Shown here: positions 52,633 to 64,000 of the stretch, piece after piece
Layout of the letters: every line of letters starts with the position of its first letter
Position numbering within the stretch: the first letter of the stretch is position 1
Assembly: GCF_000758705.1 (NCBI RefSeq)
Contig: NZ_CP009287.1
Location: 1,736,001 to 1,800,000, forward strand
Direction of reading: 5' to 3'
DNA length: 64,000 nucleotides
Source: Paenibacillus graminis
GTDB lineage: Bacteria > Bacillota > Bacilli > Paenibacillales > Paenibacillaceae
Notes under the pieces: model-generated
What the model saw: only the letters and a program-made list of their open reading frames with translations
What the model was told of the DNA's origin: nothing
Database searches by the model: none
Position numbers and translations under genes: made by a program

Positions 52633-52905
52633 TTCATTTTTAATGATAGCAATAAAAAAAGGGAAAAGCTTGAAATCGAATCTCCTTTAGAATAAAATAA
52701 CCTTAAAAACTAAACACTGACGATTCTGTAAGATTTATCTTTCGGACTGACTGGAAATGGTGATCTGACACTGGAATATAACGTTAATTTAGACGGCGGC
52801 ATCACAGCAACCCGAATGAATCTATTGAAGCTTAGGCACTTTAGAGAAATGAGGGGGACATATGGTGGCAAAGATCAAGGTAGTGTATACTTCACAAGTT
52901 ACACG

Positions 52906-52927
52906 AAATGGCGAAGCTTTGCCATTT
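52906..52927 (+). terminator. terminator before the biosynthetic operon
   Basis: AAATGGC (52906-52912) pairs with GCCATTT (52921-52927), followed by more T. No matching upstream gene is intact. Confidence 0.7.
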
Positions 52928-53020
52928 TTTTGTTGTGGTTAATTGTTATTAACAGGCATTCGATAGAAACCGGGTAATGGAATCATAAGGACTTGAACGG
53001 TTATGGAGGAATCATTGCAT

Positions 53021-56000
53021 ATGAAACCAAGTATCTTCTATCCTTTAACTCATCCACAACAAAGAATATGGTCCATCGAACAGATTTACCCGCAAACCCC
53101 GCTGCACAACATTGGAGGAACCATCCGAATCAAGGGGCCTGTTCAGTTTTCGGTATTAGAAAAGGCTATTGCTCTCTTCATCCAAAGTCATGATGCATTA
53201 AGGCTGAGAATGGCTGTCCAGAACGGGGAGCCAAGGCAATACATCAATAATCATAATAATGATTTTCCATTAGATTTCATAGATTTCTCCACACACAGTG
53301 AGCCGGAACGGGAGCTTGCAGACTGGGTGGAATCCATAGCACAAAAGCCATTCGTCCTCGAAAACGAACGGCTTTTTTATTTTGCCATGTTTAGAGTCTC
53401 TGAACACGAAAATGGCTATTTGGCCAAATTCCATCATATCGTGGCAGATGGCTGGTCCATGAATATCATGACCGATCAAATAAGCAGGACGTATACCCGG
53501 CTTTTGCAGGGAGAAAAAGTGCAGGTTCAGCCTGAACCTTCTTATCTGGAGTACAGGGACCAGGAGCAAACTTATCTTGCTTCAGAGCGGTTTCACAAAA
53601 ACCGGTCCTTTTGGCTCGAGAAATACCGGGCACTTCCTGATTCTTTTCTGAATGCCAGCTCGGATAGATTAGCCGGAAACAGAAAAACGTACGAATGGGG
53701 TCCTGGGCTCTCTGCCCGGATCAAGGGTTTGGCTTCAGCGCATAACTGTTCCTTGAATACCTTCTTTGTTACGGCGTATTTGCTGTATGCCCACAAGATT
53801 ACGGGGCAAGACGATTTGGTCGTCGGCACGCCAGTATTGAACAGATCCGGACGGCAGCAAAAAAGCACCTTTGGGATGTATACCAGTACAATGCCGTTTC
53901 GCTATGTGATTGACGGTTCCAGTTCGGTACTGGACACGATGATCCAGATCAACAGCGAGCTACAGGCCTGCTATTTCCATCAAAGATATCCTTATAACCG
54001 GTTAGTACAAGAGCTTGAGCTTAAGAAAAAAGGTTTGGATCAATTATTTAATGTCTGTGTCAATTACTACAATACCAAGCTGGGTACAGAAATCAACGGA
54101 TACCCTGTTGAGAGTGTCGAGTTCTACAGCGGGCAGCAGATGTATTCCATGCAGCTCGTGCTTAAAGAATGGACGGGCTCCGGAAGCATTACTGCAAGCT
54201 TTGACTATAAGCAAAACGATTTCACGGATGAACAAATTGATGATATGTACGGTCATCTCACGAGGCTAATCACGGCAATGGTGTCCGGCCCGGAAGCGAA
54301 GATCAGAGAAATCAGCATCCTGTCCAAGGAAGAGTGGACAGAACGGGTGGATACTTTTAATGCGACGAAAGCCTCCTACCCGCATGACAAAACCGTCTGC
54401 CAGCTGTTCGAAGAACAGGTGGAAAAGACACCCGGCGCAATCGCTGTTAGCTACAGGAATGAGCACCTGACTTACAAGCAGCTCAATGAGAAGGCCAACC
54501 AGCTCGCAGGATTTCTTATCGAAAAGGGTGTCAGCAGAGAAACCATTGTCGGTTTGTTGACCGCACACTCGATGGAAACGGTAATTGGCGTCCTTGGTAT
54601 CGGCAAGGCAGGCGGAACCTTCCTGCCCATCGATCCCGGTAATCCGGCTGAGCGGCTGGGTTATATCCTGCAAGACGCCGGCGCGGAATTTCTGCTTACT
54701 AATCTCTCTCCCGTGGATGAATGTGGCTTTGACGGCCAGATCATCAATATGGAAGGGATTAAATACGATGCATACGGGACCTCCAATGTGAAGCCGGTAA
54801 GCAAACCGGAGGATTTAGCCTACGTGATCTACACCTCCGGTTCCACGGGGAGACCCAAAGGCACCATGATTGAGCACCGGGGATTAGTGAATTATATTTG
54901 CTGGGCTAAGAAGGTCTATGTGAAGCAATCGGAGGAAGTGTTTCCGCTCTATTCCTCACTTGCGTTCGATCTGACGATCACGTCCCTCTTCACGCCATTA
55001 ATCAGTGGTGGGACCCTCCTTGTGTACCGGGACGATGAAGATGAATATGTCCTGTACCGGATTCTGCAAGAGAATCAGGCCACCATCGTGAAGCTTACGC
55101 CATCCCACCTATCCTTGTTGCTGGACCGGGGCAGCCTGAATTCCTCCGTCAAACGTTTTATTGTTGGAGGAGAAAATCTAAAAGTCAGTCTTGCCAAAAA
55201 GATATATGACAGTTTTGGTGGAAATATCGAGATCATCAATGAATACGGGCCAACTGAAACAGTGGTCGGATGTATGATCCATAATTATGTCCCGGATACA
55301 GACACAAGAGCAGCCGTGCCTATTGGAAGACCTGCCGATAATGTGCAAATTTATCTTTTGGATAACACGCTGGCTCCGGTCCCTGTTCATGCTGTAGGTG
55401 AAATCTATATTGCTGGCGACGGGGTGGCAAGAGGATACTTGAACAACCCTGGGCTGACTGCGGAGAAATTTATAGACTGCCCGTTTGCTCCGGGGAAGAG
55501 GATGTATAAGACCGGGGATCAAGGGAGGTTCCTGCGGGATGGAACACTGGAGTATATCGGCAGGCTGGATAAGCAAATTAAGATCAGGGGATATCGCGTT
55601 GAGCTGGAGGAGATCGAGAAGCACCTGCTCCATCATACCGGAATAGCAGAAGCGGTCGTTCTGAACCGTCAAGACAAAGGGCAGAATGCAACTCTTTGCG
55701 CCTATATCGTTTCCAAACGGAAAATTGCAGCCCAGGAGTTAAAAGAGTTCCTGATGGAGCAGTTGCCTGACTACCTCATTCCGTTACATTTTATCGAAGT
55801 ACAGGAAATTCCCCTAACCGTAAACGGTAAGGTAGATACAGTATTATTGGAGGAAATTGCACTTCCGGGAAGAGAAGAGAATGCGTATGTCCAACCTAGA
55901 AATGAACAAGAAGAGCAGCTTATTCAAGTGGTTGGGGAGGTTTTACGGGTCGGCGATGTAGGGATGAAGCACAACTTTTACCATCTGGGCGGAGACTCCA

Positions 56001-57511
56001 TTCAAGCCATTCAGATCGCTTCGAAACTGAGCCAAAGAGGCTTCAAGCTTAAAGTGAAGGACATGCTGTCATTTCCCATCCTGGAGGAGATGGCTACATT
56101 TATTGAAGCGGCGCAGTCAAAGGGGATTGAGCAGGGAGCAGCTGAGGGGAGCATATCGCTTACTCCCATCCTGTCCTATTTTTTTGCGCAGCATTTTGCA
56201 AAGGAGGATCACTATCATCAAAGCGTGATGGCAGTGGTTAAGAGGGAGATTGGGCTGAATACGCTGGAAAAAGCGTTAAGTGCACTAATCCGGCATCATG
56301 ATTCCCTGCGGATCAATTGCAAGGGTGACAGCGGTGAGTTGTTCTATAATCAAGAGCATTATCATACCCGCCCATCTATTGAAGAATATGATTACTCAGA
56401 CTTATCCCTGCCCGAACAAGAGGCTAAGCTGGGGGAAGAGGGGTATAGGCTGGCTGCTAGCTTCGATCTGCAGCAAGGCCTTTTGGTGAGAGCGGCTGTA
56501 TTTGATCTCGGCCCTGTCCGGAAAATGCTGCTGATCGCCCATCATCTTGTGGTAGACGGTGTATCCTGGAGAATTATCCTGGAAGATATGAATACATTGG
56601 TGCGGCAGATCCATCGCGGCCAAGAAGCGGCACTCCCTTTGAAGACAAGCTCCTATCAGAAATGGGCCAAGGCATTGGAAACCAGCCGGCAGACGCTAGG
56701 GTTGCAGGAAGAAGTGTACTGGAATTCGATACTGCAGAAGCCTTTCACGTTGTCAGCGGACCATGACCAAGGAGCGGACATCCTCGCAAGCTGCCATACA
56801 TTAATATCTGATCTTGGGCGGCCTGAGACTGCGGCGCTTCTGTCTGAAGCCAATGTTCCTTACAATACAGAACCACTTGATTTGCTGCTGACGTCTTTAC
56901 TGGTGGCAATCAAAGAATGGACGGGCAGCAGAGATATGGTCATTGAAATGGAGGGGCATGGACGGGAGGATATCGATGAACTTGTTGATGTCACAAGGAC
57001 CGTAGGATGGTTTACAAGCTTGTATCCATTCGGCATCACCTTGAACGAGGAAACCCTGTCCGGGCAGATTAAACAGGTTAAAGAGGAACGAAGAAGAGTG
57101 CCCGGTAACGGAATGGGGTTTGGATTATTGCGCCAGCTTGGCCGTATTGCAGATAACCGTCTGCGCAAGTTTATCCGTTTGAATTACCTTGGGGAATTTA
57201 TTCAAGGTCACAGCGGCGAATATCTGACCCTATCGGGAGAACAATTTCAGTACAATGTAAGCGGAGACAACCATCTTACAAGTTTGCTGGACATCAACTG
57301 CTTGGTGATCGATGGCCATTTACAGCTAAATCTGACATACAGCCGGAATAAATTCCTGGACACGACCATGGAGCGGCTGCAAACGTTTTGGATCAGAAAT
57401 CTGAAGCTGGTGATTGAACATTGCAGCAATACTGAAAGAAAAGAATATACTCCCTCCGACTTTGATACGGTTGATATTTCCCAGGAGGAGTTAGACAGCC
57501 TGTTCAGCTGA
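53021..57511 (+). CDS. single-module NRPS (C-A-T-E), predicted to make N-acyl-D-asparagine
   Basis: About 1496 aa non-ribosomal peptide synthetase. Condensation domain (about 1-440) with FHHIVADGWS. Adenylation domain (about 455-955) with YTSGSTGRPKGT, NEYGPTE, YKTGDQG and the core Lys in PLTVNGKVD. Thiolation domain with Ser near 993 in LGGDSIQAI. Epimerisation domain (about 1055-1490) with AHHLVVDGVSW and VGWFTSLYP. Reading the ten pocket positions against GrsA gives D-L-T-K-I-G-E-V-G-K, one step from the known asparagine code (Leu to Ile). The leading C domain would join a fatty acyl group to Asn, as in prodrug starter modules. The start is either ATG 53021 or 53003; GGAGG lies between. 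First gene of the operon. Confidence 0.93.
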   Translation: MKPSIFYPLTHPQQRIWSIEQIYPQTPLHNIGGTIRIKGPVQFSVLEKAIALFIQSHDALRLRMAVQNGEPRQYINNHNNDFPLDFIDFSTHSEPERELADWVESIAQKPFVLENERLFYFAMFRVSEHENGYLAKFHHIVADGWSMNIMTDQISRTYTRLLQGEKVQVQPEPSYLEYRDQEQTYLASERFHKNRSFWLEKYRALPDSFLNASSDRLAGNRKTYEWGPGLSARIKGLASAHNCSLNTFFVTAYLLYAHKITGQDDLVVGTPVLNRSGRQQKSTFGMYTSTMPFRYVIDGSSSVLDTMIQINSELQACYFHQRYPYNRLVQELELKKKGLDQLFNVCVNYYNTKLGTEINGYPVESVEFYSGQQMYSMQLVLKEWTGSGSITASFDYKQNDFTDEQIDDMYGHLTRLITAMVSGPEAKIREISILSKEEWTERVDTFNATKASYPHDKTVCQLFEEQVEKTPGAIAVSYRNEHLTYKQLNEKANQLAGFLIEKGVSRETIVGLLTAHSMETVIGVLGIGKAGGTFLPIDPGNPAERLGYILQDAGAEFLLTNLSPVDECGFDGQIINMEGIKYDAYGTSNVKPVSKPEDLAYVIYTSGSTGRPKGTMIEHRGLVNYICWAKKVYVKQSEEVFPLYSSLAFDLTITSLFTPLISGGTLLVYRDDEDEYVLYRILQENQATIVKLTPSHLSLLLDRGSLNSSVKRFIVGGENLKVSLAKKIYDSFGGNIEIINEYGPTETVVGCMIHNYVPDTDTRAAVPIGRPADNVQIYLLDNTLAPVPVHAVGEIYIAGDGVARGYLNNPGLTAEKFIDCPFAPGKRMYKTGDQGRFLRDGTLEYIGRLDKQIKIRGYRVELEEIEKHLLHHTGIAEAVVLNRQDKGQNATLCAYIVSKRKIAAQELKEFLMEQLPDYLIPLHFIEVQEIPLTVNGKVDTVLLEEIALPGREENAYVQPRNEQEEQLIQVVGEVLRVGDVGMKHNFYHLGGDSIQAIQIASKLSQRGFKLKVKDMLSFPILEEMATFIEAAQSKGIEQGAAEGSISLTPILSYFFAQHFAKEDHYHQSVMAVVKREIGLNTLEKALSALIRHHDSLRINCKGDSGELFYNQEHYHTRPSIEEYDYSDLSLPEQEAKLGEEGYRLAASFDLQQGLLVRAAVFDLGPVRKMLLIAHHLVVDGVSWRIILEDMNTLVRQIHRGQEAALPLKTSSYQKWAKALETSRQTLGLQEEVYWNSILQKPFTLSADHDQGADILASCHTLISDLGRPETAALLSEANVPYNTEPLDLLLTSLLVAIKEWTGSRDMVIEMEGHGREDIDELVDVTRTVGWFTSLYPFGITLNEETLSGQIKQVKEERRRVPGNGMGFGLLRQLGRIADNRLRKFIRLNYLGEFIQGHSGEYLTLSGEQFQYNVSGDNHLTSLLDINCLVIDGHLQLNLTYSRNKFLDTTMERLQTFWIRNLKLVIEHCSNTERKEYTPSDFDTVDISQEELDSLFS

Positions 57512-57541
57512 TGGCGAAAATTCAGGATGCGAGGTTATGGA

Positions 57542-60500
57542 ATGAAAAAAGGGATAGCGGGATGGCTCGTCTTGTTGTTGTTCACTATGGTACTGCCACT
57601 GCATGCATGGGCAGAACCGGCTGCTTCAAACAGTTTGTCTAATGAGGAAACTGCCGGCATTGAAGCCTGGATCAACAAGAATATGCGGGAAGGCAAAATA
57701 CCGGGTGCATCCGTTGTTATTGTTAAGGGTGAGCAGACGGTCTACAGCAAAGGCTTTGGGGATTCCGATGTGGGAGCTAAGCGCCCTGTGACTCCGGAGA
57801 CGCTGTTTGAGCTTGGTTCGACCAGTAAGGCTTTTACTGCATTAGCTGTACTATCGCTGGAAAAACAAGGTTTGCTTCATTTGAAAGACCCTGTACAGAA
57901 GTACCTTCCCTGGTTTCAGGCTGCCTATGCCGGAGAAAACGGCTCTGGTAAAAGCCGTGCGGCTGAAATTACCCTGGATCAGCTTCTTCATCATACCAGC
58001 GGCCTTCCATTTGATACGATCAGCGATATTCCCGTTAGCGGGGATGACCAGGCGCTGGAGCGTACGGTTAAGGCCGTGGTTGGGGAGAAGCTTGATTTTT
58101 ACCCGGGGGACAGGTTTCAGTATGCTTCCATCAATTATGACATCCTGGGGCTTGTGATCGAAAAAGTAACGGGAGAATCATATGAGACTTATCTGAAAAA
58201 TAACGTATTGAACCCCCTGGGTTTGAAAAACACCTACCTTTTCCGTACAGAAGCAGAGCAGCATGAAATGGCGAGGGGGTATAAGCTCGGATTCTTAAAA
58301 GCCCGGGAATATCAGGCTCCTGTGTATCGTGGAAATACGCCTGCCGGTTATGTCATTTCAAATGGCAACGATATGGCAGCGTGGCTGAAAATTCAGATGG
58401 GAGAGCGGGCGGAAGCAGCGATGGATGCCGGCTTGATCGGCCGCTCCCATGAGCCGGACCGGTCCGTCTTCCCCAGTCTGGACGGTTCTTCCTATGCGGC
58501 AGGCTGGTTTGTCTATCAGAAAGGGAGCGGAGAGCTTTCCCATGGAGGCAGCAATCCGAATTATTCCTCTTCCGTGGTGTTCCGCCCGGAGGAGAAGCTC
58601 GGGGTCGCCGTATTGGCGAACCTTAACTCCTCCTACACCCAGGCGATGGGGCAGGGGATTATGGAAATTCTGCACAACAAAAAGCCGCCTGAACAGGTGT
58701 CCGATCAATATGCCAGTGTAGACAAGGTTTCCCTTGTCATTCTCTGTATTGCGGTCCCGTTAATCCTGTTAACGGGCTGGTTTTTCATTATAACCCTCAA
58801 GGAAATCATCACCAAGGAAAGAAGGCTTCGCCGGAAAACCGCTAAAAATATGTATGGGCTGGCCGTGCTGCTGGGATTTTTGGGGCTGCTCAGTTATTGC
58901 TTATATAACATTCCATCTGTTTTATTTAGCGGGCTTTCATGGGAACTTGTGGAAGTATGGGCCCCATCAAGCTTTATGACTGCGATTCCAAGTTTATTCA
59001 TCGGGGTCGTTTTCTTTTCCGTATACTACTTCACCACATCACTGTTCCCCAAGGCGCGGGACCGGAGCCTGTTTCCTATCATCTTCCTTAGCACCATAAG
59101 CGGCTTTGGAAATGCAATCATCATCTTCATCATTAATGAAGCACTGAATCATACGAACCGTTTTCAGACGGGGTTATTTTCGTTTTTCGTGATGGGTCTT
59201 GCTGTTTATGTCTTTGGCCAAAGGCTGGTTAGGACGAAGCTGATTACCCTGACCAATGAAATGGTTTTTCAAAAAAGAACAGATCTGATCGACAAGATTC
59301 TGCGTTCTTCTTATCAAAATATCGAAAGTATCGAAAAAGAACGGATCTATTCGGTACTAAACAATGATACGGAAACGATCAGCGGCGTTACCAATATTCT
59401 CATTTTTGGCGTGACCAGCCTGGTCACTTTGCTGTGTTGCTTCGTCTATTTAGGAACCATTAATCTGCTTGGCCTGCTGATCTCGATTGTGGTTATTTTA
59501 TTTGCAGCCGGACTGTATTTTTTGGCGGGAAGACATGCCAATCAAGTCTGGGGAGAGACCAGGGATATTCAAAATACCTTTTTCAAGTTCATCAATCACA
59601 TGGTCAGCGGTTTCAAGGAGCTTAGCCTTCATAAAGGTAAAAAAGAAGAGTTCCAGGAAGAGCTTAAGCAAAGCTGTGATACCTACCGGATCAAACGGAT
59701 TCAGGGTGACTTAAGCTTCGCCAATGTATTTGTGATGGGAGAACTGCTGTTTACCTTTGTAATCGGAGTTGTAGCCTTTATTTTTCCGCTGCTCTTTAAG
59801 GACATTTCGAACAGCTCCCTCAGGGCCTATATCTTTGTCTTTCTGTATATGACAGGGCCGGTCCACGGAGTGCTGGATGCCATTCCGAATTTCGTTCGGG
59901 TCCGGATCAGCTGGAACAGGCTGAACGAGCTGTCCAATCAGCTGGATACGGTTGAGGAAATGTATGAAATCCCAGCTGATAATGAAGGGTCCGAAGACGG
60001 CCCCCTCCATTTGGAGGCCAGGGATATTACTTACCACTACGAAACCCAAGAAGGCGAACAGTTTGCGGTGGGGCCGCTGAATCTGAGTGTCCGTTCCGGG
60101 CAGGTTACTTTTGTTACAGGCGGGAACGGGAGCGGGAAGTCTACCTTAGGCAAATTAATAACGGGCTTATATAAGCCGGATCAGGGAGAAATTCTGCTGA
60201 ATGGCCGGCAGGCAGCACCGGAGGAACTGAGCCAGAGCTTTTCTGCTATATTTAGTGATTTCCACCTGTTTGACAGGCTTTACGGAATGGAAACCGGCGG
60301 TAAAAGTCAGGAGATTCAAGAATATTTGCAGAAGCTGGACATTGAACACAAGGTCCAAATCCAGCAGGGGGCCTTTAGCACCGTCAATCTCTCAACCGGA
60401 CAGCGGAAGCGATTAGCGCTTTTGATCAGCTGCCTGGAGGATCGTCCGATCTATCTTTTTGATGAATGGGCCGCAGATCAAGACCCGGAATTCCGGGATT

Positions 60501-60652
60501 ATTTCTATCATGTGCTCATTCCGGAGTTGAAGGAAAAGGGAAAATGCATCATTGCGATTACGCATGACGATAGATATTTCGATATGGCTGACCAATTGCT
60601 GAAAATGGAAGTGGGACTGCTCGTGGGTGAGCCGGAGAAACAACATGCATAA
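57542..60652 (+). CDS. ClbP-like serine peptidase fused to an ABC exporter (XcnG/ZmaM type)
   Basis: 1036 aa. Signal peptide (1-24), then an extracellular beta-lactamase-like serine peptidase with S93-T-S-K96, the Tyr in YASIN (194) and HGG (334-336). Three membrane helices follow (about 396-418, 438-458, 477-500), as in the colibactin peptidase ClbP. The chain then continues into a complete ABC exporter: six more helices (about 509-780) and an ATPase with GGNGSGKST (860-868), LSTGQ (950-954), YLFDEW (971-976) and His 1008. This is the build of XcnG and ZmaM, which export an acyl-D-Asn-capped prodrug and cut off the cap outside. The NRPS ends 30 bases upstream. GAGG precedes the chosen ATG; an in-frame ATG 15 bases earlier is possible. 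Confidence 0.93.
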   Translation: MKKGIAGWLVLLLFTMVLPLHAWAEPAASNSLSNEETAGIEAWINKNMREGKIPGASVVIVKGEQTVYSKGFGDSDVGAKRPVTPETLFELGSTSKAFTALAVLSLEKQGLLHLKDPVQKYLPWFQAAYAGENGSGKSRAAEITLDQLLHHTSGLPFDTISDIPVSGDDQALERTVKAVVGEKLDFYPGDRFQYASINYDILGLVIEKVTGESYETYLKNNVLNPLGLKNTYLFRTEAEQHEMARGYKLGFLKAREYQAPVYRGNTPAGYVISNGNDMAAWLKIQMGERAEAAMDAGLIGRSHEPDRSVFPSLDGSSYAAGWFVYQKGSGELSHGGSNPNYSSSVVFRPEEKLGVAVLANLNSSYTQAMGQGIMEILHNKKPPEQVSDQYASVDKVSLVILCIAVPLILLTGWFFIITLKEIITKERRLRRKTAKNMYGLAVLLGFLGLLSYCLYNIPSVLFSGLSWELVEVWAPSSFMTAIPSLFIGVVFFSVYYFTTSLFPKARDRSLFPIIFLSTISGFGNAIIIFIINEALNHTNRFQTGLFSFFVMGLAVYVFGQRLVRTKLITLTNEMVFQKRTDLIDKILRSSYQNIESIEKERIYSVLNNDTETISGVTNILIFGVTSLVTLLCCFVYLGTINLLGLLISIVVILFAAGLYFLAGRHANQVWGETRDIQNTFFKFINHMVSGFKELSLHKGKKEEFQEELKQSCDTYRIKRIQGDLSFANVFVMGELLFTFVIGVVAFIFPLLFKDISNSSLRAYIFVFLYMTGPVHGVLDAIPNFVRVRISWNRLNELSNQLDTVEEMYEIPADNEGSEDGPLHLEARDITYHYETQEGEQFAVGPLNLSVRSGQVTFVTGGNGSGKSTLGKLITGLYKPDQGEILLNGRQAAPEELSQSFSAIFSDFHLFDRLYGMETGGKSQEIQEYLQKLDIEHKVQIQQGAFSTVNLSTGQRKRLALLISCLEDRPIYLFDEWAADQDPEFRDYFYHVLIPELKEKGKCIIAITHDDRYFDMADQLLKMEVGLLVGEPEKQHA

Positions 60653-60773: not shown

Positions 60774-61655
60774 ATGAATACATTCGAAACGATCGGGATT
60801 ATTGGCGCAGGGGTAATGGGTTCCGATTTGGCCTTGGATTTGGCAAGCCAGGGGTACCAGGTCATCCTGAAAGATATCCATGAAGAGGCACTGGACAAGG
60901 CTAAGGCGAAGATCAGAGAAGATTTCAAGCTAGTAAAGCTGATGAAAAAAGAGCTGCAAGTGAAAGAAATTGAACAAGTGCTTTCTAACATCAGGTTCAC
61001 TACTACATATCAAGAGTTCCATGCCGTTCCCTTTGTGATTGAAAATATCACGGAAAACTGGGAGGCAAAGCAACAGGTATATCTCGAACTTCGGGAGCAT
61101 TGCGAGGAAGATACCATTTATGGTGTGAACACGAGCTGCATTTCCATCACTAAGGTGGGTGCAATACTTCCCAATCCGGAGATGGCAATCGGCATGCATT
61201 TCATGAATCCGGTTCCGCTCAAGCAGATGGTAGAGATCATTAAAGGCTATTATACATCCGGGGATACGATCCAGAAGATCAAAGACTTTTTGAAAGCGAT
61301 TGGCAAGAAGCCTGTTCTGGTCAACGATTCGCCGGGTTTTGTGACCAACCGCGTCCTAATGCCCATGATTAACGAATGCATCTGGGCCGTGCATGATGGG
61401 GTCGCTGCACCGCAGGATGTGGATAAAATTTTCCGTTTAGGCTTCAGCCATAAAATGGGCCCGCTCGCTACCGCCGATTTGATTGGGCTTGATACGATCT
61501 TGAATTCCATCATGGTTCTGTATGAGAGCTATAACGATCCGAAATATCGCCCCTGTCCGTTGCTGGTCAAGATGGTGGACGCAGGGCTGCTGGGGAAGAA
61601 GAGCGGCAAAGGCTTTTTTGATTACACTTCGGTTCTCGCCCCTAGCCGTGTGTAA
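60774..61655 (+). CDS. 3-hydroxyacyl-CoA dehydrogenase-like protein (FkbK/ZmaG type)
   Basis: 293 aa NAD-dependent dehydrogenase with GIIGAGVMGSDLALDLASQG, the substrate-side Ser in VNTSCISIT, catalytic His in IGMHFMNPV and the C-terminal NRVLMPMINE...ADLIGLDT block. AAGGTGG precedes the ATG. In hydroxy- and methoxymalonyl-ACP pathways this family oxidises the C2 hydroxyl of glyceryl-ACP. Its placement directly before FkbH-like, ACP and (later) acyl-CoA dehydrogenase genes supports that role rather than fatty acid metabolism. Confidence 0.9.
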   Translation: MNTFETIGIIGAGVMGSDLALDLASQGYQVILKDIHEEALDKAKAKIREDFKLVKLMKKELQVKEIEQVLSNIRFTTTYQEFHAVPFVIENITENWEAKQQVYLELREHCEEDTIYGVNTSCISITKVGAILPNPEMAIGMHFMNPVPLKQMVEIIKGYYTSGDTIQKIKDFLKAIGKKPVLVNDSPGFVTNRVLMPMINECIWAVHDGVAAPQDVDKIFRLGFSHKMGPLATADLIGLDTILNSIMVLYESYNDPKYRPCPLLVKMVDAGLLGKKSGKGFFDYTSVLAPSRV

Positions 61656-61691: not shown

Positions 61692-62726
61692 ATGGAAATT
61701 AAAAACGGAATTAAATGCGTTGTGTGGGATTTGGACAATACCCTCTGGGATGGTGTTCTGTCCGAAGGGGATGAGGTAACGTTAAAACCGCAAATCAGGG
61801 AAATTCTGGAGGAACTGGACCGCCGGGGAATTCTGCTGTCCATCGCCAGCAAAAATAATATCGACGATGCGATGAACAAACTGAAAGAGTTTGAAATTGA
61901 CCACTATTTTCTTTATCCCCAAATCCATTGGGAGCCAAAATCAAAGTCACTGGATGCCATCCGCCAGTCGATCAACATCGGCATGGATACGCTGCTGTTT
62001 ATTGATGACCGGCCTTTTGAGCTGGATGAGGTAAAAAGTGTTCATGCAGCCATCAATTGCGTTCATGCCGATCGTTACCAGGAGCTGCTTGACCATTCTT
62101 CGCTGATCCCCGCCTTCATCACAGAGGACTCAGTAAAAAGAAGGCTCATGTATCTGGAGGATATGAAACGAAAACAGGAAGAAGAAGCGTTCTCGGGAAC
62201 AAGCGAGGAGTTTCTAAAATCGCTGGGCATGAAATTCATCATCAGTGAGGCCGGGGAGGAGGATTTGAAGCGTGCCGAAGAATTAACCGTACGCACCAAT
62301 CAGTTGAATTCGACGGGGCGGATCTACAGCTACGACGAGCTGAATCACTTTCGGGAATCACCCGGCCATAAGCTGTATGTCTGTGAGCTAACCGATAAAT
62401 ACGGCTCTTACGGCAAAATTGGCATCGCCTTGGCCGAGCTGACAGAAACCCATTGGCATATCAAGCTGCTGATTATGTCATGCCGGGTGATTTCGCACGG
62501 GGTTGGCACGGTTCTGCTGACGCATATCATGCAGCAAGCCAAACAAGCCAATAAAAGGCTGTTAGCTGACTTTAAGAATACGGAACGCAACAAAATGATG
62601 TACGTCTCTTACAGGTTCTCCAACTTCAAAGAGATAGCCAAGGCGGAGGACGGATTTGTTATCCTGGAAAATGATTTGACAACGATTCAGAAATTCCCTC
62701 CTTATATCGAGCTTCTCGTCAGGTAA
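61692..62726 (+). CDS. FkbH-like HAD-family protein, glyceryl-ACP forming
   Basis: 344 aa FkbH-family protein: HAD motif VVWDLDNTLWDGVL, SIASKNN, LLFIDDRPFELDEV, then the C-terminal acyltransferase-like half (RTNQLNSTGRIY, LIMSCRVISHGVGTVLL). Known members take 1,3-bisphosphoglycerate, dephosphorylate it and load a glyceryl group on a discrete ACP. The ACP is the next gene. A weak GAGG site precedes the ATG. Length is normal. Confidence 0.93.
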   Translation: MEIKNGIKCVVWDLDNTLWDGVLSEGDEVTLKPQIREILEELDRRGILLSIASKNNIDDAMNKLKEFEIDHYFLYPQIHWEPKSKSLDAIRQSINIGMDTLLFIDDRPFELDEVKSVHAAINCVHADRYQELLDHSSLIPAFITEDSVKRRLMYLEDMKRKQEEEAFSGTSEEFLKSLGMKFIISEAGEEDLKRAEELTVRTNQLNSTGRIYSYDELNHFRESPGHKLYVCELTDKYGSYGKIGIALAELTETHWHIKLLIMSCRVISHGVGTVLLTHIMQQAKQANKRLLADFKNTERNKMMYVSYRFSNFKEIAKAEDGFVILENDLTTIQKFPPYIELLVR

Positions 62727-62765: not shown

Positions 62766-63017
62766 ATGAGCATGCATGAGCAAATCCGCAATTTTATTCA
62801 GGACAATCTGGTGGTTTTTGATGATGATGTTGAATTCAGCAATGAAGACAATATTTTTGAGCTGGGCTTCGTGAATTCATTGTTTGCCATGAAATTGGTT
62901 ACGTATATTGAGAGTGAATTCAATACGACCATTGAGAGTGAGGAAATGGATATCAACAATTTCAATACGATAGATAACATCGTAAACTTTATCCATTCGA
63001 AAACGGTCTATCAATAA
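62766..63017 (+). CDS. discrete acyl carrier protein (FkbJ/ZmaD type)
   Basis: 83 aa acidic carrier protein. The phosphopantetheine Ser lies in LGFVNSLFAMKLV; the N-S-L-F-A form, in place of D-S-L, is what FkbJ-type carriers show. AAGGAG lies 10 bases before the ATG. It would carry glyceryl-, then hydroxymalonyl- (and perhaps methoxymalonyl-) units for an assembly line outside the window. Confidence 0.93.
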   Translation: MSMHEQIRNFIQDNLVVFDDDVEFSNEDNIFELGFVNSLFAMKLVTYIESEFNTTIESEEMDINNFNTIDNIVNFIHSKTVYQ

Positions 63018-63026
63018 GGGCACAGT

Positions 63027-63722
63027 ATGATTTATACGACGAAAAACACTGGGGCCGTTTTTAATTGGGATGAGTATTTTATGAAGCTGAAGAACGGGGA
63101 AGTTGCGGCGTTTAACGTGGAGTCGTATTTTCATAATGTCAGGGATTTGCTGAGCGAGAACGCTCACTTGCTGGCCCTGGTCTTGGGGGATGTATTGCGC
63201 AAGCTGTTGAGGGGCGTTCAGATCCAGCCGGAGCCAAGAGTCCTGGAGCTGGGGGCGGGTACAGGGTTTCTGACTCGTCTTTTAGTAACCATGTACGGAG
63301 GCAGCGGAGCTTTGGTGGATAATTGCCGGACCTCCTTTGACGCCTATAACCGGATAAAGGACAAGAGTGAGAACCGCATTACGTATCAGTTGGAAGACTT
63401 GTTTGCCTTGAAGGTGGCAGAGCCGTTTGATATTGTTTGCAGCTTTGGACTCATCGAACATTTTAAAGAGAAGCAGGAGATTCTGTCCATCCACAGAGAG
63501 CATTGCCGCCCGGACGGATATATCATTTTGATCGTACCGATGGACAGCTTTTTGACACGGGCCTATTACGAGGTTCATCCCGAAATCAACCTGGGGTATA
63601 GAGAATTGTTAACCAAGAAGACCGCATTGGAACAGATTCAGACATGTGGGCTGCAGCCGGTCCGGGCAGAAGCCAGCCAGGGCTATGTTTATGATTTTTT
63701 GACGGTTTTGTGCAAGGGATAG
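63027..63722 (+). CDS. class I SAM-dependent methyltransferase
   Basis: 231 aa. SAM motif VLELGAGTGFLTRLL, then FDIVCSFGLIEHF and a later GYIILIVPM strand. AAGGG precedes the ATG. In methoxymalonyl-ACP loci an O-methyltransferase (FkbG) acts on the hydroxymalonyl unit, and position suggests the same here. However, the sequence looks more like the general methyltransferase-12/23 group than FkbG, so it may instead methylate the final product. The gene lies between the ACP and the acyl-CoA dehydrogenase. Confidence 0.85.
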   Translation: MIYTTKNTGAVFNWDEYFMKLKNGEVAAFNVESYFHNVRDLLSENAHLLALVLGDVLRKLLRGVQIQPEPRVLELGAGTGFLTRLLVTMYGGSGALVDNCRTSFDAYNRIKDKSENRITYQLEDLFALKVAEPFDIVCSFGLIEHFKEKQEILSIHREHCRPDGYIILIVPMDSFLTRAYYEVHPEINLGYRELLTKKTALEQIQTCGLQPVRAEASQGYVYDFLTVLCKG

Positions 63723-63772: not shown

Positions 63773-64000
63773 ATGGCGATGACTAGAAATATTTCACACA
63801 GCATTCTGGAAGAAGTGAAGCAGTTCGTCGAGGAAGATATCCGGCCCTTCGCGGCTGATTTTGAAGCACAGCAGGCACTGCCCCCGGAGTTAATCCGGAA
63901 GATGGGGCAACAAGGATACCTGGCCGCGAGCTTCCCTGAGGAGTTCGGGGGGCTGCAGCTGGACCCGCTTGAATACGGCAGTCTGGTTGAAGAGATCGGC
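63773..64000 (+). CDS. acyl-CoA dehydrogenase-like protein (FkbI/ZmaE type), 3' end outside window
   Basis: The first 76 codons run to the window end: MAMTRNISHSILEEVKQFVE, then IRPFAADFEAQQALPPELI, MGQQGYLAASFPEEFGG. This is the N-terminal helical region of acyl-CoA dehydrogenases. In hydroxymalonyl-ACP pathways this member carries out the last oxidation on the carrier protein. The start ATG at 63773 has only a weak GGGATGA site. All four hydroxymalonyl-ACP functions are thus in one operon. Confidence 0.87.
   Translation, partial: MAMTRNISHSILEEVKQFVEEDIRPFAADFEAQQALPPELIRKMGQQGYLAASFPEEFGGLQLDPLEYGSLVEEIG

Follow-up and report, generated by a model that had tools for sequence, protein, structure and literature searches.

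The starter nonribosomal peptide synthetases (NRPSs) ClbN and XcnA, of colibactin and xenocoumacin biosynthesis, follow a condensation-adenylation-thiolation-epimerization (C-A-T-E) logic, and the same logic is found in the first of two adjoining genes of Paenibacillus graminis that are described here. The second gene encodes a ClbP-type peptidase with an exporter in the same protein. Such peptidases have been described as unfused proteins, namely, ClbP and XcnG, and as fused forms of approximately 1,100 aa, namely, ZmaM (zwittermicin), EdeA (edeine), and PamJ (paenilamicin) (PMC9889268). The fused systems combine the peptidase, a membrane part, and an ATP-binding cassette (ABC) exporter in one protein, with an Asn starter NRPS alongside and a host within the Bacillota, and the P. 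graminis genes resemble them in all of these features. When ZmaM was inhibited, a mass that fits prezwittermicin accumulated, and in inhibitor-treated Brevibacillus formosus the accumulating mass fits preedeine (PMC9889270). The P. graminis cassette is a well-supported member of this ZmaM/EdeA/PamJ kind of acyl-D-Asn prodrug system, the mechanism of which is already known from published work (PMC9889270).

The window, that is, the whole 64,000-nucleotide stretch analyzed, corresponds to G000:C1:1736001-1800000, where G000 is the P. graminis genome and C1 its single contig of 7.17 Mb; features are listed below in window positions, and seven-digit coordinates are those of the contig. With high confidence, we assign the two genes to the capping and the uncapping step of an N-acyl-D-asparagine prodrug route at the head of a polyketide synthase (PKS)/NRPS operon of approximately 144 kb. 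The pair would very probably add a chemical cap and later remove it, so that the producer is unharmed by its own product. The genes and their parts are as follows:

53003..57511, + strand: starter NRPS, C-A-T-E, with Asn code DLTKIGEVGK (Pfam, motifs, and PDB matches)
53036..54334, + strand: N-terminal C domain with HHIVADG motif, proposed to be a fatty-acyl starter C domain
54407..55831, + strand: A domain with the Asn code
55913..56104, + strand: T (carrier) domain, LGGDSI
56159..57508, + strand: E domain, HHLVVDGVSW, predicted to make D-Asn
57527..60652, + strand: signal peptide, ClbP-type S12 peptidase, domain of three transmembrane (TM) helices, and ABC exporter (ZmaM/EdeA/PamJ architecture)
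57662..58633, + strand: S12 peptidase domain
58709..59050, + strand: membrane domain 3' of the peptidase part, with W472 and W478
59081..60631, + strand: ABC exporter part, TIGR01194 cyclic peptide export ABC transporter

In the proposed mechanism, the starter NRPS would load asparagine, to which its first C domain would add a fatty acid, and the E domain would convert the residue to D-Asn. The downstream assembly line may extend the acyl-D-Asn into a capped precursor, which the fused exporter would carry across the membrane. The outward-facing peptidase, aided by the membrane helices, is then expected to cut after D-Asn, freeing the active compound outside the cell.

The two open reading frames (ORFs) lie on the forward strand at 53003-57511 and 57527-60652 and are separated by 15 bp; an in-frame ATG at 53021 is the start used in an initial annotation made from the sequence letters. 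That annotation had described a C-A-T-E starter NRPS with an Asn-like pocket, followed at once by a ClbP-type peptidase fused to an ABC exporter, and both genes were confirmed at this place. Pfam analysis returned two Condensation domains, AMP-binding, and PP-binding for the first gene, and Beta-lactamase (S12; E value, 4.2e-78) and ABC_tran (E value, 1.5e-27) for the second. The last NRPS domain matched PDB entries of PvdL, tyrocidine synthases 1 and 2, bacitracin synthase 3, and gramicidin S synthase 1 (E values, 6.5e-77 to 6.3e-63), the matched stretches of which we take to be epimerization domains. The pocket code of the starter A domain, obtained by motif alignment at positions assumed to follow GrsA numbering, is DLTKIGEVGK, and the B. 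formosus orthologue has the same code. This code is treated in the Asp/Asn section of a survey (PMC12283262), and the domain is predicted to select asparagine.

The fused protein is 1,041 aa long, and its ABC part scored 381.8 bits against the NCBIfam family "cyclic peptide export ABC transporter", for which the curated cut-off is 286.2. Direct comparison with ClbP showed that the peptidase fold, the catalytic and D-Asn-binding residues, and the TM tryptophans are shared: E95, S98, K101, Y199, S201, N343, W472, and W478 of the window protein correspond to E92, S95, K98, Y186, S188, N331, W460, and W466 of ClbP. Thus, the catalytic S-x-x-K and Tyr of ClbP are all kept (S98, K101, and Y199), as are the D-Asn-binding residues N343 (N331), S201 (S/T188), and E95 (E92). 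According to the published family description, N331 is strictly conserved, position 188 is S or T, position 257 is H or N, E92 is highly conserved and orients N331, and W460 and W466 are strictly conserved (PMC9889268). An AlphaFold model of the protein (predicted local distance difference test score, 90.8) was searched with Foldseek, and ranks 1-4 among PDB entries were full-length ClbP with the membrane part included; in two of these structures, an analogue of acyl-D-Asn or an inhibitor is present. Membrane helices were predicted from the model at residues 365-399, 409-431, and 452-477. In a plasmid search, the best 20 of at least 5000 records matched the ABC part only, and no record spanned 80% of the query.

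To place the peptidase among its homologues, S12 paralogues of the same genome were used as a control (20 rows, 19 distinct). Although the catalytic S, K, and Y were kept in 20/20 rows, E was found at ClbP position 92 in 0/20 and N at 331 in 1/20 (4 gapped), and position 188 was N in 15/20. A tree of 115 rows was built from the window peptidase, 96 relative rows (91 distinct), ClbP and the Staphylococcus aureus protein FLP (both from the PDB), and 16 paralogue rows (15 distinct). The window peptidase, all relative rows, and ClbP formed one clade with a support of 0.954, and this clade contained neither FLP nor any paralogue row. The initial annotation had grouped the peptidase with ClbP, XcnG, and ZmaM; the tree bears this out for ClbP, with XcnG and ZmaM outside its sampling. 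The annotation had also likened the pair to the xenocoumacin, zwittermicin, and colibactin systems alike. The fused form is that of ZmaM/EdeA/PamJ, whereas ClbP and XcnG, being unfused, differ from the window protein, which has its own exporter.

Residue conservation was then followed in 78 alignable relatives of 80 named loci. N331 was N in 78/78, position 188 was S or T in 78/78, W460 was W in 78/78, and W466 was W in 77/78. Because E92, S95, and the NYD stretch were part of the scan patterns by which these relatives were found, conservation of those positions is not independent evidence. The 69 relatives in named genomes whose frame measured 800 aa or more were read as fused, and their neighborhoods were taken to extend up to 10 kb to either side; an NRPS A-domain motif was present nearby in 66 of the 69 and a strict Asn-code A domain in 52. 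In contrast, an A-domain motif or Asn code was found within the same distance in none of the nine shorter relatives.

Several observations weigh against the prodrug reading. The same pocket residues occur in the nine unfused relatives, which have no A-domain motif nearby; the residues are therefore not diagnostic alone for a prodrug role. The window protein also differs from ClbP at two of the residues compared. ClbP H257 is replaced by N270, which falls within the published H-or-N description and is N in 78/78 relatives, and ClbP K235 is replaced by M248, a position with M in 44/78 relatives and K in 2/78. The K235-E92 salt bridge is given for ClbP, and not as a family-wide feature, in the relevant part of PMC9889268, and the absence of K235 was not treated as excluding ClbP-type membership. 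When the peptidase domain was searched alone, FLP scored slightly higher than ClbP (207.9 vs. 194.1 bits), although the residues of FLP aligned with ClbP positions 188 and 331 are N and L, respectively. Finally, the starter role of the first C domain, which would acylate Asn with a fatty acid, is putative: the PDB entries 7c1k/7c1l, which we take to be a starter C domain, were among its matches, but higher scores were obtained with Txo2, Txo1, and tyrocidine synthetase 3.

The initial annotation had called for extension of the contig to the right, and this placed the cassette at the head of a hybrid PKS/NRPS cluster of approximately 144 kb (1789003-1933288), the genes of which share one orientation. 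Its conservation was searched in 60 genomes, including that of P. graminis, and in named records (Paenibacillus sp. HW567; P. jilunlii, which is the same as G015; B. formosus NRRL NRS-863; and B. parabrevis). A homologue of 3-amino-5-hydroxybenzoic acid (AHBA) synthase was present at 94-95% identity in G015, G028, and G033, and the same three genomes carry the peptidase at 93%; G057 had homologues at 40-41% only. The distance from the peptidase to the AHBA synthase homologue is approximately 122 kb in G028 and G033 and 125 kb in P. graminis. In total, seven distinct genomes of Paenibacillus and Brevibacillus, including that of the window, each carry the peptidase, the AHBA synthase homologue, and a gene for a UvrA-like protein. 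The starter NRPS/peptidase-ABC pair is kept in the six further genomes, which argues that it did not arise by chance. In B. formosus, counterparts were found for 41 of the 42 ORFs between 1789003 and 1934754, in the same order and at 46-83% identity, the sole exception being the phosphatase-family gene 1818150; 11 of the 14 A-domain codes are identical.

B. formosus has been reported to carry a second ClbP homologue, suggesting a product family that is uncharacterized (PMC9889270, 2022). The window peptidase is probably the orthologue of this protein, BP422_09930 (CP018145.1), as the syntenic cluster is present in B. formosus NRRL NRS-863 together with one other peptidase-ABC gene; the comparison was made in NRRL NRS-863, and the locus tag of strain NF2/CP018145.1 would be the corresponding gene. 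The other peptidase-ABC gene of NRRL NRS-863 is separate, with 49% identity, and lies in another NRPS/PKS locus. An edeine identity of that locus was considered and set aside, since an aminomutase motif and a strict Asn-code A domain were both absent in a motif search of the surrounding 60 kb.

Two other explanations of the cassette were weighed. Resistance peptidases have been reported for nonribosomal peptide antibiotics, as indicated by the title of Li et al. (2018), and the window peptidase could be such a D-stereospecific enzyme, destroying a mature or foreign peptide instead of activating a capped precursor. This is highly improbable given the C-A(Asn)-T-E starter gene immediately upstream, the conserved D-Asn pocket residues, and the frequent occurrence of strict Asn-code A domains near fused relatives. 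It is just as improbable that the cluster is a variant of the edeine, zwittermicin, or paenilamicin cluster with a product that belongs to the corresponding family. The fused peptidase is of the same type, and B. formosus, another strain of which is a published edeine producer, carries the orthologous cluster; yet NRRL NRS-863 has its second peptidase-ABC gene in a different locus, and the P. graminis cluster contains AHBA-pathway-like genes, the gene for the UvrA-like protein, and seven genes that encode DH and KR domains, which to our knowledge are not parts of the zwittermicin, edeine, or paenilamicin clusters. The prodrug cluster of P. graminis further differs from those systems in its length, its PKS modules deficient in the acyltransferase (AT) domain, and its LoaP-type leader. 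The prodrug interpretation of the initial annotation is supported.

A separate question is which unit the AHBA-pathway-like genes provide. The best PDB match of the DegT-family protein encoded at 1918643-1919893 was the AHBA synthase RifK (1b9h; 323.6 bits; E value, 1.7e-95), and the next kind of enzyme scored 266.9 bits. A Gfo/Idh oxidoreductase and a ROK kinase adjoin this gene, and a type II dehydroquinase and a HAD protein are encoded elsewhere in the cluster; all four are also kept in B. formosus. We take these dehydroquinase, oxidoreductase, HAD, and kinase families to be those of RifJ, RifL, RifM, and RifN, respectively, to which the cluster proteins match at the family level only. Together with the strong RifK homologue, five genes of the cluster resemble those of the AHBA (mC7N) pathway for ansamycins such as rifamycin, and the cluster differs from the ansamycin systems in its Bacillota host and NRPS-rich line. 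Genes of the RifG, RifH, and RifF (arylamine N-acetyltransferase) types were not found among the cluster ORFs; DAHP_synth_2 had no match in the whole genome; and the two dehydroquinate (DHQ) synthase and two DAHP_synth_1 matches of the genome all lie outside the cluster. The best NCBIfam family of the HAD protein was "AHBA synthesis associated", at 126.1 bits, below the cut-off of 246.65. These gaps would suit a pathway in which the aminotransferase and its companions make another amino sugar or aminocyclitol-type unit, which would leave the prodrug reading of the cassette unaffected. We regard such a pathway as unlikely, though worth keeping in mind, because of the margin by which RifK is the best match and the companion genes conserved in the same cluster. 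AHBA formation is likely from these sequence matches, although the gene set in the cluster is incomplete. In the ninth A domain (gene 1865542, code AILHLGFVIK), the amino-acid-anchoring Asp235 is replaced by Ala, which is typical of aminobenzoate-activating A domains, and this domain is therefore a candidate AHBA loader.

The UvrA-like protein encoded at 1860506-1862923 is 805 aa long. Relative to the housekeeping UvrA, it is missing 44 and 85 aa as well as the first zinc CxxC pair, and thus has neither the UvrB-binding region nor the first zinc module. Ecm16 differs from UvrA in the same way, and UvrA2 shares the feature (PMC10192343). Ecm16 and DrrC, which are self-resistance proteins against DNA intercalators, resemble it in having a UvrA fold without these parts, but the window genome's protein is nearer to canonical UvrA (3pih, 505.6 bits) than to Ecm16 (7sh1, 373.5 bits), which argues against close Ecm16 kinship; it is therefore called UvrA-like here and not a member of the Ecm16/DrrC group. 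It also differs in that it sits in a Bacillota prodrug cluster, where its resistance role is putative. In actinobacteria, UvrA-like genes have served to find clusters for DNA intercalators (PMC10413001). In G033, the UvrA-like gene (within G033:C1:3776001-3784000) occupies two frames with a break near codon 513-526, which may be real or an assembly error.

A GNAT gene closes the cluster, with its best NCBIfam match below the cut-off. A dual defense by prodrug formation and an N-acetyltransferase has been reported in related systems (PMC9054821). The product is presumably toxic, and the UvrA-like and GNAT genes fit this. The gene content as a whole, with AHBA-like genes, a UvrA-like protein, and a prodrug cap, points to a DNA-directed compound. 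We tentatively suggest, at somewhat less than even odds, that the product is an AHBA-containing, DNA-directed hybrid polyketide-peptide of the Bacillota made as an N-acyl-D-Asn prodrug, with AHBA entering mid-chain via the A domain of gene 1865542, whereas ansamycins start the chain with AHBA. Self-protection would then be threefold, by the acyl-D-Asn cap, surveillance of DNA by the UvrA-like protein, and possibly N-acetylation. Neither this cluster nor its combination of parts was found described, among the matches listed, in the main text of open-licence literature on AHBA in Paenibacillus, Brevibacillus, and trans-AT Bacillus and on B. formosus prodrugs. The cassette is a handle on a conserved orphan cluster of very large size, at the start of which it lies. 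As a published ClbP inhibitor causes the capped precursors of two such pathways to accumulate (PMC9889270), the cluster product could be searched for directly in P. jilunlii, B. formosus, and B. parabrevis.

The operon is preceded by a leader RNA:

52800..52935, + strand: operon leader RNA with a UUAG-loop (UNCG-type) hairpin, a second hairpin, and an intrinsic-terminator-like hairpin with a T run

The leader is highly similar between the Paenibacillus and Brevibacillus orthologues. Its covariation score was 0.390 vs. 0.156 in shuffles, with slid controls at or below 0.097 (22 distinct rows), in an alignment fitted to the model, which favors this score. Folding of the single sequence was no better than that of shuffles (z, 0.03), the structure being evident only across genomes, and Rfam gave no match to the leader at E ≤ 5. 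A second copy lies inside the operon, upstream of a type II thioesterase (TEII) gene (G000:C1:1864601-1864728). The leader model had matches in 15 of 392 genomes of the order (E ≤ 0.001, strict filters). Two copies, leader and internal, are present in each of G000, G015, G028, G033, and G287, the G287 copy being identical to that of Paenibacillus sp. HW567, and B. formosus also has two. Ten other genomes have single copies, of which seven adjoin a LoaP-like gene and three lie in NRPS loci, including one that also has a prodrug peptidase-ABC gene; the LoaP-like neighbors are 36-42% identical to the cluster LoaP and are not separated from other NusG paralogues.

LoaP binds a UNCG-type hairpin (PMC12691694). 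The core hairpin, in its forms GC-UUAG-GC, GC-UUCG-GU, and GU-UUCG-GC, fits this type; UUAG is counted as a UNCG-like loop in view of the UUCG found there in other copies. A LoaP gene is located at the end of the cluster (201.8 bits, cut-off 125), and both leader copies are probable LoaP antitermination elements. The LoaP-controlled difficidin and macrolactin operons likewise have a LoaP gene and a leader with a UNCG-type hairpin and a terminator, but the window leader has the UUAG loop and its operon an internal second element. At G347:C44:3501-23500, the leader RNA stands beside matches resembling a phosphopantetheinyl transferase, a TEII, an NRPS, and a prodrug peptidase-ABC protein, and this locus is possibly a further orphan prodrug cluster.

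The cluster order is starter NRPS, peptidase-ABC, 3-hydroxyacyl-CoA dehydrogenase, FkbH, acyl carrier protein (ACP), methyltransferase, and acyl-CoA dehydrogenase, followed by large PKS, NRPS, and hybrid genes. Within the window, the genes after the cassette are as follows:

60774..61655, + strand: 3-hydroxyacyl-CoA dehydrogenase-like protein (extender-unit cassette)
61692..62726, + strand: FkbH-domain protein (270.1 bits, curated cut-off 146.65)
62766..63017, + strand: free-standing ACP
63027..63722, + strand: methyltransferase, proposed for extender O-methylation or as malonyl-ACP O-methyltransferase
63773..64000, + strand: 5' part of an acyl-CoA-dehydrogenase-like gene that runs past the window to G000:C1:1800939

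The methyltransferase had no PDB match at E ≤ 1e-4, and its single NCBIfam match was BioC (36.8 bits, below the cut-off of 184.95). Extender O-methylation and Art28-like esterification of malonyl-ACP (PMC8302727) are both possible roles.

A full AT domain with the active-site motif GYSxGE was found in three modules (1800936, 1813468, and 1879044); the remaining PKS modules have no intact AT, and the discrete AT gene 1887372 carries GHSLGE. The 14 A-domain codes of the cluster read, in order, Asn; Gly; Ser; Ser; Thr; Gly; Cys; DIFHMGMIWK; AILHLGFVIK; Gly; DIFHAGLIWK; Ser; and DLKNFGTDIK twice, where residue names other than those for Asp/Asn and homoserine, which the survey covers, are our presumptive assignments. 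The code DLKNFGTDIK is close to both DLKNLGTDVK and DLKNVGSDVK, which are given for homoserine (PMC12283262). A MOX insertion, an idea from the same survey (PMC12283262), was considered for the Gly domain with code DILQLGMIWK and rejected, as the domain is too short.

The gene at G000:C1:1827122-1829773 opens with the C-terminal half of a C domain, the preceding gene ends in a full C domain, and the order is the same in B. formosus. The last NRPS (G000:C1:1924195-1932696) contains a C-C tandem, and an A-T pair present in B. formosus (G062:C22:222294-232607) is missing; the motif pattern without the third A-T is also found in G028. BtrH_N-type proteins are encoded at G000:C1:1818894-1820480, 1862904-1863998, 1915547-1916638, and 1935036-1936070, of which the first and last match the family and the middle two resemble the last by BLAST; these are possibly acyl or aminoacyl transfer enzymes. 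A transglutaminase-like protein is encoded mid-cluster (G000:C1:1840288-1841100) and shares 73% identity with its B. formosus counterpart.

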